The notes under the pieces are model-generated. The model was given only the letters and a program-made list of their open reading frames with translations, did not search any database and had not been told where the DNA came from. From Neisseriaceae bacterium (GTDB lineage: Bacteria; Pseudomonadota; Gammaproteobacteria; Burkholderiales; Neisseriaceae), in NCBI GenBank assembly GCA_017934045.1, contig JAGBKK010000022.1, positions 1 to 64,000 of the forward strand: a DNA stretch of 64,000 nt, given 5' to 3'. A program made the translations under genes and the position numbers. Shown in pieces: positions 24,768-35,582 of this stretch. Position 1 is the first letter of the stretch. Each line of letters begins with the position of its first letter.

Positions 24768-27521
24768 CTACTCAATCTTGCGTTCGACTTCGATGATTTC
24801 GAAGAATTCCAACTGGTCGCCTTCGATAATATCGTTGTAGTTTTTCACCATTAAGCCGCATTCAAAGCCTTTTTTAACTTCTTTCACATCGTCTTTAAAG
24901 CGTTTGAGTGAGTCTAATTCGCCTGTGAAAATCACCACATTGTTGCGTAACACACGCACTTTGGCATCTCGTTTGACCAAGCCTTCGGTTACCATACAGC
25001 CTGCAATGTTGCCGACTTTGGATATGGAAATCACTTGACGGATTTCTGCCAAGCCCAAGACTTGTTCTTTTTCTTCGGGCGACAACATTCCGCTCATGGC
25101 GGCTTTTACATCGTCAATCACATCGTAAATAATGTTGTAATAGCGAATTTTCACGCCTTCGTTTTCGGCTAACTTTCTTGCACCGCCGTCTGCACGCACA
25201 TTAAAGCCCACAATCACTGCTTCGCTGGCTAATGCCAAATTGACATCGGACTCGGTAATGCCGCCCACGCCGCTGTGAATAATGTTGATTTTAACTTCTT
25301 CGTTCGACAGTTTATTCAGGCTGCCTGAAAGTGCTTCGTATGAACCTTGTACATCGGCTTTGATGATAATTGGCAAGGATTGCACTTCGCCACTTTCCAT
25401 ATTGGTGAATAAGTTTTCCAACTTGGCGGCTTGTTGTTTCGCCAAACGCACATCACGGTATTTGCCTTGACGGAATAAGGCAATTTCGCGTGCTTTTTTC
25501 TCGTCCGCCAATACGATGGCGTCTTCGCCTGCGTTGGGGACATCGGACAAGCCCAAAATTTCCACAGGAATGGACGGCCCTGCTTCTTTGATTTCTTTGC
25601 CGTTTTCGTCCAACATTGCACGCACTTTACCAAACGCTGTGCCTGCTAACAGCATATCGCCTTTTTTCAGGGTGCCTGATTGCACGAGTAGCGTAACCAC
25701 CACGCCACGACCTTTGTCCAAACGCGATTCGACAATAATGCCTTTGGCAGGGGCTTCCACAGGGGCTTTCAGTTCCAAAACTTCGGCTTCCAACAAGACT
25801 GCGTCTAACAATGCGTCTATATTCAAGCCTTTTTTGGCTGAAATATTGATACATTGCACATCGCCGCCCCACTCATCAGGCACAATGCCGTATTGCGTGA
25901 GTTCTTGGCGGATTTTCTCTGGATTTGCCGACTCTTTATCGATTTTATTCACAGCCACCACAATCGGCACGCCAGCGGCTTTGGCGTGGTTAATCGCTTC
26001 AATCGTTTGCGGCATGACACCGTCATCGGCAGCCACCACCAAAATCACAATATCGGTGGCTTGGGCACCACGAGCCCGCATAGCCGTGAAAGCCTCGTGT
26101 CCTGGTGTATCCAAGAATGTAATCACGCCTTTATCAGTTTGTACATGATACGCACCAATGTGTTGCGTAATACCGCCCGCTTCGCCTGACACCACCGAAG
26201 TGCGGCGGATATAGTCCAAGAGCGAAGTTTTACCGTGATCCACATGCCCCATCACCGTTACCACAGGCGGACGCGTCAGTTTTTCGGCTTCCACATATTC
26301 GCCACCATCGTCCAAAAATGCTTCTGGATCGTCCGCTTCGGCAGCTTTGCCAATGTGTCCCATTTCTTCCACCACAATGAGAGCGGTTTCTTGGTCTAAC
26401 ACTTGGTTAATGGTTACCATCATACCCATTTTCATCAAGGCTTTAATCACTTCAACGGCTTTAACTGCCATTTTGTGGGCAAGTTCTGCCACCGTAATGG
26501 TTTCAGGCACCACCACTTCATGCACCACAGGTTCGGTCGGTGCTTGGAAACCGTGTTGATTTTCCACTTTCGGCAATTTTTTGCCTTTTTTCGCACCACG
26601 CCATTTATCCGAATCCAAGTCTATGTCTTGGTTGCGACCTTTGACTTTACCGCCACGGCGTTGTTCTCTGTCGTCTCGATCGTTATTATTATTGCCTTTG
26701 CGTTTGCCTTTATCACCGCGTTTTTCGCCACGATTATCATCAATCGCAGGGGCTGCCTGAACGGTTTTTTCAGGCTGCCTTGCTTTGTCTTTTTCTTTAT
26801 TTTTATCTTTGGCTTTGACTTCTTCTTTTTTATTGCCAGACGCTTTGGCACTTCTTAACGCCGCTTCTTTTTGCTGTTGAGCGGTTTTCTTTTCTTCTTC
26901 CGCACGCAAACGCGCGGCGGCTTTGCGTTCTTCGCGTTCTTGTTTTTGACGCATCAACGCCGCTTGGGCTTCACGCATTGCCGCTGCACGGCGTTCTTCT
27001 TCCGCACGGCGTGCTAATTCTGCATCGCTGATAATCGGTTGTGGCACAATAGGTTCAGCCGCTTTTGCCGATTTGCCTTTTTTCTCTGCCTTGTCAGCTG
27101 ATTTTTCTTTGGCAGGTTTTTTGGCTTTTTTGGGTTTTTCTTCTGCCTTATGATCAGCCGATTTTTCAGGCTGCCTTTTTTCAGGAGCTTTGGGTTTTTC
27201 GGCTTTTTCAGTTTTTTCAACTTTGGGTTCTTTGGGGGCAACCGCCGCTTGGGGTTCAGGCGTTTTTTCAGGCTGCCTTACTTCTTCTTTTTTCTCGACC
27301 ACTGGCGTAGGTTTTTCTGCCACTTGTGGGGTTGGTGCAGGTTTTTCTTCTACTTTTGTCGCAGGAGCAGGTTCTGCCTTTTCAGCCACAGGTGTTGCCG
27401 TGGGCGTTTCATCAATCGGTGGCACAACCACACGGCGTTTGCGGCGTGTAACCACTTCCACGCCAGCCACCGTGCTGTGTTCTTCCTTATTTCGTGTTCT
27501 GACTTCTTTGTTATCTGCCAT
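24768..27521 (-). CDS. infB: Translation initiation factor IF-2
   Basis: 917-aa GTPase that places fMet-tRNA on the 30S subunit. The G domain begins at about residue 415 ('[16 protein letters not shown]', 'DTPGHEAF', 'NKID'), followed by the IF2 beta-barrels and C-terminal domain. The N-terminal 300 residues are a low-complexity Lys/Glu/Ala/Pro stretch. It contains several 'RQPEK'-type segments, each encoded by an uptake sequence (about 26765-26780, 27165-27176, 27266-27278). GGGAG precedes the ATG. It follows nusA by 17 bp in the usual rimP-nusA-infB operon. Confidence 0.97.
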
Positions 27522-34361: not shown

Positions 34362-35582
34362 ATGAACAACATTCAACAAGTACGCCTTTTGGGGCAGCAA
34401 ATTTGGTTAGATAGTTTATCGCGTTCGATGATTATCAAAGGCGAATTAAGCGAAAAAATGCGTCAAGGCGTTTGTGGCGTTACCACCAATCCTGCGATTT
34501 TTCTTTCCGCCATTAAAAATGACGAGTTGTATCACGCACAAATGCGAACACTCAAAGCGGAAGGCAAAACCGCCAAAGAAATTTACGAAACGATGGCGTG
34601 TGCCGATGTTCAGGCTGCCTGCGATATATTTTTAATGGAATATCAATACAGTAACGGCAATGCAGGTTTTGTGAGTATTGAAGTTGATCCCGCTTTGGCG
34701 AATGACGAAGACGGCACAGTGTTTGAAGCACGCCGTTTGCAACAAAAAATCAATCGTCCCAATGTGATGATTAAAATTCCTGCCACAGAAGCTGGCATTA
34801 AGGCAGTACAACGCTTGGCAGGCGAATGCCATATCAACACTACGCTGATTTTCTCACCTGAAACGGTTTATCAAATAGAAAAAGCATTTTATGCAGGTTG
34901 CCCACAATCGCACCGCCGCTTGGTTGCCAGCGTATTTTTATCACGCATTGACACGGCGATTGACAGTCAATTACCTGCCGAATTACAAGGCAAAACAGCG
35001 GTGGCAATGGCTCAATCTTTATATCAAGAAATGCAAAGCCATACCATTCCTGCCACGCTCATCAACGCTTGGCAAAATCCTGAACCGCAAGATGATGAAG
35101 AAGACGGCTGTTGCGGTGGTTGCGGTTGTGGTGGTCATCATCATCATCACGATGATGAACACGAATGTTGTGGCGGCGGCGGTTGCGGCGGTCATCATCA
35201 CCATGACGATGAACACGAATGTTGTGGTGCGTGTGATGAACACCATCATCATTTCACCCCAACTTATCAAGCAGGCACGCCGTTAATTAACTTATTGTGG
35301 GCTTCCACGGCGACCAAAAATCCAGCCTATTCAGATACGCTGTATATCGACAATTTAATCGGCAAAAACACCGTCAATACGCTGCCTGAAAAAGCACTGA
35401 ACGCCTTTTTGGAACACGGCAAAGTGGCTGAAATAAATTGCAGCCAAGCGGATAAAATTTTAAGCCAAGTGGCACAATACGCCGACTTATCCGCTGTTGC
35501 AAAAGACTTACAAATCAAAGGGTTGCAACAATTTCAGGCAGCTTTTGATGAAATTTTGGCGTTTATTGAAGCATTTGAATAA
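34362..35582 (+). CDS. tal: Transaldolase with a Cys/His-rich insert
   Basis: 406 aa, against about 350 in Neisseria relatives. It moves a dihydroxyacetone unit in the pentose phosphate pathway. 'GVTTNPAIFL', 'FVSIEVDPALA', 'VMIKIPATEAGI' (Schiff-base Lys) and 'LLWASTATKNPAYSDTLY' are normal. Residues about 244-298 form an added block with 10 Cys and 15 His: an acidic lead-in, then units of the form CCGG.GCGGHHHH(H)DDEHE repeated, and a final 'CCGACDEHHHH'. It sits in a surface loop just before the 'WAST' strand. AAGGAA precedes the ATG. The insert probably binds Zn, Ni or Cu; the barrel itself looks functional. Confidence 0.93.
   Translation: MNNIQQVRLLGQQIWLDSLSRSMIIKGELSEKMRQGVCGVTTNPAIFLSAIKNDELYHAQMRTLKAEGKTAKEIYETMACADVQAACDIFLMEYQYSNGNAGFVSIEVDPALANDEDGTVFEARRLQQKINRPNVMIKIPATEAGIKAVQRLAGECHINTTLIFSPETVYQIEKAFYAGCPQSHRRLVASVFLSRIDTAIDSQLPAELQGKTAVAMAQSLYQEMQSHTIPATLINAWQNPEPQDDEEDGCCGGCGCGGHHHHHDDEHECCGGGGCGGHHHHDDEHECCGACDEHHHHFTPTYQAGTPLINLLWASTATKNPAYSDTLYIDNLIGKNTVNTLPEKALNAFLEHGKVAEINCSQADKILSQVAQYADLSAVAKDLQIKGLQQFQAAFDEILAFIEAFE
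35091..35256 (+). repeat. In-frame tandem repeat encoding the Cys/His-rich transaldolase insert
   Basis: Units of about 54-57 bp repeat two and a half times ('tgttgtggcggcggttgc', 'catcatcaccatgacgat', 'gaacacgaatgttgtgg'). Copy number could change by slippage or recombination without loss of frame. Confidence 0.8.

Follow-up and report, generated by a model that had tools for sequence, protein, structure and literature searches.

Cys/His-rich metal tails are familiar on chaperones and metallochaperones, whereas a central enzyme of sugar metabolism is an unusual place for a built-in Cys/His loop. The tail of Escherichia coli SlyD contains 13 His and 6 Cys residues and binds up to 7 Ni (PMC7840056, PMC7055735), and metal on this tail can reversibly inhibit SlyD itself (PMC7055735); the His/Cys extension of Helicobacter HspA is likewise described as a nickel sequestration domain (PMC3856676, PMC4671568). 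The transaldolase of Neisseria gonorrhoeae (NgTAL; PDB 3clm, 6zx4) possesses a surface, allosteric Lys8-NOS-Cys38 switch, and its cross-linking under oxidation lowers activity (PMC8964421, PMC11056971). Here we describe a transaldolase with an internal Cys/His-rich loop in a genus of uncultured, ruminant-gut Neisseriaceae.

The window, i.e., the whole stretch of DNA analyzed, comprises 64,000 nucleotides of contig JAGBKK010000022.1 (assembly GCA_017934045.1). It carries tal at 34362..35582 on the plus strand, encoding a 406-residue transaldolase of the Neisseria/Corynebacterium type, as identified by its open reading frame (ORF), the PF00923 and TIGR00876 profiles, and a PDB match. The PF00923 match covers residues 14-400 (E 7e-70; 236 bits versus a cut-off of 27), and by profile search it is the sole copy in this genome; with TIGR00876 the product scores 245 bits, above the cut-off of 233.75. 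Because the subfamily model NF002881 (PRK03343) gave 342 bits, below its cut-off of 367 and in two separate stretches, the product was filed under PF00923/TIGR00876 and not under NF002881. The closest PDB sequence is 3clm (E 2e-87), whose match is split into query residues 4-227 and 303-400 with the Cys/His segment between them, and a fold search with the predicted structure returned 7oey, 3clm, 7bbx, and 7bbw as the best hits (E 4e-25 to 4e-24). Residues D17, N43, K138, N159, and S190, which we take to be catalytic, are kept in 30 of 30 aligned transaldolases, 6 from the genus and 24 from other Neisseriaceae; K138 (34773..34775, plus strand) is presumably the Schiff-base lysine of the family. 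NgTAL thus has its whole fold, catalytic residues, and family in common with the tal product, yet it differs by a short linker without a Cys/His loop, by Lys8 and Cys38 with the NOS switch as opposed to Arg8 and Cys38 in the window, and by a segment of 8 residues. This segment, near residues 178-179 after the fifth strand, is missing from all six transaldolases of the genus and present in most other Neisseriaceae. In a phylogenetic tree, the genus sequences group as a single, fully supported clade at the end of a very long branch, a placement to which the tree tool's warning that long branches may be falsely joined applies. When the first-pass annotation called the enzyme otherwise normal, it was nearly right: the PF00923 match and the catalytic residues, which are intact in the alignment, agree with it, but the 8-residue deletion and the long branch do not.

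The Cys/His segment spans residues 244-298 (35091..35256, plus strand) in the linker between helix 231-238 and strand 311-315. The first-pass annotation had read it as about 55 residues arranged in repeated units, 10 of them Cys and 15 His, and the sequence, the ORF, and the residue count bear this out; its observation of the insert is confirmed. All motifs lie on the plus strand: an opening CCGGCGC (residues 250-256; 35109..35129), found in all four genomes of clade A, among them G006 in slightly altered form; repeat unit 1, HHHHHDDEHECCG (residues 259-271; 35136..35174); repeat unit 2, HHHHDDEHECCG (residues 278-289; 35193..35228); and a closing ACDEHHHH (residues 290-297; 35229..35252), which reads NCDECDNCH in three clade-A relatives. 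Repetition at the DNA level is real but degenerate, since Tandem Repeats Finder reported a repeat at 35136-35252 with a period of 54, 2.2 copies, and 73% matches. When every stop-to-stop frame of at least 100 codons in the window was scanned, this segment, with 25 Cys plus His per 55 residues, ranked above the second-best and third-best stretches, with 16 and 14. A profile built from the insert alignment had 0 matches among PDB sequences at E up to 1, and in an NCBIfam search at E up to 0.1, each of the 6 insert sequences matched 0 families. In an AlphaFold model of the tal product (14 sequences; mean pLDDT 69, pTM 0.72), no structure was seen in the segment, with pLDDT below 50 for residues 243-312; residues 316-358 were also poorly modelled. 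The segment is hence predicted to be disordered, and barrel geometry would place the loop on the N-terminal face, opposite the mouth of the active site, which opens at the C-terminal ends of the strands. With its dense Cys, His, and acidic residues, its Cys pairs, and its predicted disorder, the insert fits a SlyD/HspA-like extension by make-up.

We examined seven genomes of the genus, one per species and from separate assemblies, and found the insert at the same position in all six that bear tal. The five insert-bearing relatives are metagenome-assembled genomes (MAGs) from sheep omasum (three), roe deer abomasum (one), and water buffalo reticulum (one). The junction is constant in the genus, preceded by a helix that ends near W237 and followed by strand LLWAS. 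Counted from residue 240, the linker is 58-106 residues long with 6-17 Cys and 8-25 His in the six members, compared to 8-14 residues, 0 Cys, and no more than 3 His in all 24 other Neisseriaceae aligned (loci L007-L030, of 75 matching family genomes outside the genus, the other 51 not being aligned). By this alignment, the segment expands or replaces a linker already present in relatives. In searches of 369 genomes of the class (149 matching) and of 149 relatives (125 matching), only the genus spans the insert among the matches listed, and as these were the best matches only, the occasional similar case in another lineage could have escaped notice. Among the papers searched, none reported a transaldolase with such a Cys/His insert. 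The first-pass annotation had considered the insert foreign to familiar transaldolases and had asked if other isolates might lack it; the former agrees with its absence from the 24 aligned sequences, and the five other tal-bearing genomes of the genus all have it. In G001, a 99% complete genome of the same genus, no PF00923 match was present in the whole genome, with argH and slyD both found. A profile for the Cys/His block matched only at tal, in 5 of 16 genomes, and nowhere else in the seven genus genomes, although it is not fully sensitive, having missed the known insert of G003. Weak extra matches were seen at C27 of G000 (E 0.56), in G008 (E 0.13), and in G007 (E 0.5). Those in G000 and G008 were rejected as second blocks, no Cys/His-rich ORF being listed at either place; the ORFs at C27 were named by eye as RNA polymerase alpha, ribosomal protein L17, and a lipoprotein.

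In the window, tal is preceded by argH upstream and followed by an MlaD-type transport operon. In relatives, tal is accompanied by genes for a class II tRNA synthetase, an LRR protein, LemA, an acyltransferase, homoserine dehydrogenase, and a nuclease, and argH sits on another contig than tal in the four relatives where both were found. No metal genes were found beside tal in the window or in relatives, except for an iron-containing alcohol dehydrogenase 3.9 kb off in G002. The gene for the LRR protein, of 318 residues, lies upstream of tal in L036 (4985-5941) and L039 (330-1286), two of the relatives. The window also contains 120 matches to AGGCWGCCTGAA, versus 0.01 by chance, mostly as overlapping palindromic pairs TTCAGGCAGCCTGAA; we take these sites to be DNA-uptake-like sequences with both dialects at one site, and one AGGCWGCCTGAA match lies inside tal (34609-34620). 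A second tandem repeat in the window, at 27309-27373 with a 30-base unit in 2.2 copies, falls inside a 917-residue ORF (24768-27521, minus strand) next to nusA, which is probably infB.

The number of CCG units differs among the six genomes, with three in the window, G005, and G002, five in G003 and G006, and two in G004. Even G005 and G006, whose cores are nearly alike (pS 0.14), have three versus five. The unit number therefore grows and shrinks, even between close species, as the first-pass annotation had proposed for the repeat. The units themselves are of two types, HHHH(H)DDEHECCG-like (HHHHDDEHECCG-like) in the window, G002, G005, and G006, and HCCGECDDHEH-like in G003 and G004, two lineages keeping the Cys/His chemistry with different units. 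Across 15 pairs, pN/pS was 0.12-0.55 in the insert versus 0.09-0.28 in the core, with weaker constraint on the insert in 15 of 15, and the alignment of low-complexity repeats favors matches, so that pN is underestimated and constraint overestimated in these comparisons between species. For four closely related pairs tested out of the 15, synonymous sites in the insert were more often changed than nonsynonymous ones (Fisher p 1.5e-6, 1.2e-5, 5e-4, and 8e-5). Aligned cysteines used a different synonymous codon in 40 of 123 Cys-Cys pairs (TGT/TGC), as did histidines in 27 of 112 His-His pairs (CAT/CAC). The comparison within the G003 array is independent of alignment choice; there, among units 1-4, which align ungapped, four codons differ synonymously and a single amino acid is replaced; unit 5 diverges at its end. 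Because nucleotide changes in the insert favor synonymous sites, these sequence comparisons imply selection to keep Cys and His.

This pattern bears on the possibility that the insert is a repeat whose expansion is tolerated, an array of codons prone to slippage that sits in a surface loop and is functionless in itself. Expansion of acidic His/Cys repeats need not involve metal, the units here are low in complexity and change fast, as between G005 and G006, the site is a permissive linker, and the whole of tal sits on a long branch in the genus. However, pN/pS is well below 1 in every pair, the synonymous excess is present in all four pairs tested, and both clades of the genus retain the insert; nor did the profile, which overlooked G003, find a second locus in the seven genomes, which argues against a general tendency of these genomes. 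We regard this explanation as unlikely, if still worth serious consideration.

We favor instead, with a probability of roughly 0.52, the reading that the insert is a disordered, selected metal-binding loop on an ordinary housekeeping transaldolase, serving mainly as a metal buffer. By analogy with SlyD and HspA, and from its composition, the insert likely binds metal. With its CCG, CxC, and His4-5 clusters, which Asp/Glu residues separate, each chain would hold several ions of the soft or borderline kind (Zn2+, Cu+, Ni2+); the transaldolase would double as a cytosolic metal buffer, as described for the Cys/His tails of SlyD and HspA, and gain or loss of tandem units would tune its metal capacity. 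Transaldolase is usually well expressed, and in a well-expressed enzyme with several sites per chain, we infer that buffering is the simplest purpose of the insert and would outrank control of the enzyme as its main role. The first-pass annotation had suggested that the segment stores or senses metal or places the enzyme under metal control, an interpretation that our analysis supports in part.

The comparison with known extensions supports this buffer reading in some respects and counts against it in others. The SlyD proteins of E. coli and H. pylori resemble the tal product in bearing a disordered His/Cys/acidic segment on a housekeeping enzyme, but the SlyD segment is a C-terminal tail on a PPIase, whereas that of tal is an internal loop of tandem units in a sugar-phosphate enzyme. 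Neither the FKBP nor the IF domain of the SlyD type was detected in the tal product, in which only PF00923 scored above cut-off. A protein search found slyD as a separate gene in all seven genus genomes. The insert as a copy of the genome's own SlyD tail is unsupported, the two tails read of the seven, those of G000 and G001, being short His tails without Cys. HspA, a GroES, offers a second likeness: it is a housekeeping protein that in a single genus carries a His/Cys-rich extension, with a Cys-Cys motif, which other bacteria lack (PMC3856676, PMC4671568). The HspA extension, however, is C-terminal, on a chaperonin, and tied to Ni enzymes, whereas the tal insert is internal and occurs in a genus in which neither urease alpha nor [NiFe]-hydrogenase was found (0 of 7 genomes for each, with positive results of the same searches in control genomes). 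These absences make nickel storage for the two enzymes unlikely and zinc or copper the better candidate metals. The same absences, together with the lack of metal neighbors noted above, leave no obvious client for stored nickel, which speaks against the buffer reading, as does the presence of SlyD in every genome of the genus, which thereby already owns a metal-tailed protein, albeit with a short tail in G000 and G001. The looser constraint on the insert than on the core, the bias of repeat alignments, and the potential of such repeats to grow without any tie to metal also weigh against it.

The loop could alternatively be a regulatory switch, with metal binding or disulfide formation changing the barrel, controlling activity, and replacing the Lys8-NOS-Cys38 switch. 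The position of Lys8 (34383..34385, plus strand) is Arg in all six genus transaldolases, compared to Lys in 22 of the 24 other Neisseriaceae; that of the NOS-bridge cysteine, residue 38 (34473..34475, plus strand), is Cys in 23 of the 24 and Ser in five of the six, with Cys kept in the window. The window's enzyme, with Arg8 and Cys38, thus falls outside the Lys-NOS-Cys class, which has both Lys8 and Cys38. As noted above, the gonococcal switch acts allosterically from the surface, with activity lost on oxidative cross-linking, and metal on the E. coli SlyD tail can reversibly inhibit the enzyme that bears it; moreover, the strand order of the model would put the loop and residue 38 both at N-terminal ends of barrel strands. 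On the other hand, L041 (a Snodgrassella MAG) and L047 carry Asn8 and Ser38 yet lack the insert, and the outgroups L040, L042, and L043 have Arg8, indicating that the pair can be lost with nothing to take its place. The retained Cys38 also counts against replacement: for other proteins, Arg-NOS-Cys links have been suggested (PMC12075730), so that Arg8/Cys38 in the window is no proof that the switch is gone. The loop, finally, is predicted to be disordered and probably lies away from the active-site mouth, which neither supports nor opposes metal control of the enzyme. We hold this switch to be doubtful.

Two further explanations fare far worse than the metal buffer. The insert might store nickel for Ni enzymes in the manner of H. 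pylori HspA, whose residue mix and Cys-Cys motif it shares, and the named relatives do come from gastric or forestomach habitats; the absence of urease alpha and [NiFe]-hydrogenase, the two Ni enzymes that the searches covered, makes this very improbable. An assembly or sequencing artefact, conceivable because all named relatives are MAGs, can be dismissed for practical purposes, as the insert recurs in six genomes with differing lengths, always in frame and synonymously diverged.

The metal buffer reading aside, a bolder proposal, which we advance only as a long shot, is that the transaldolase of this genus lost Lys-NOS-Cys and gained, on the same barrel face, a tandem Cys/His array, tunable by copy number, through which metal or the oxidation of thiols is sensed and flux in the pentose-phosphate pathway is set. 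If true, one kind of covalent redox switch would have been replaced by a metallothionein-like one. The NOS redox switch was first found in the transaldolase family, which makes enzymes with and without the switch a natural comparison. An internal, tandemly varying Cys/His array in an enzyme of central carbon metabolism, selected genus-wide, would couple the pentose phosphate pathway to metal handling or to redox state.
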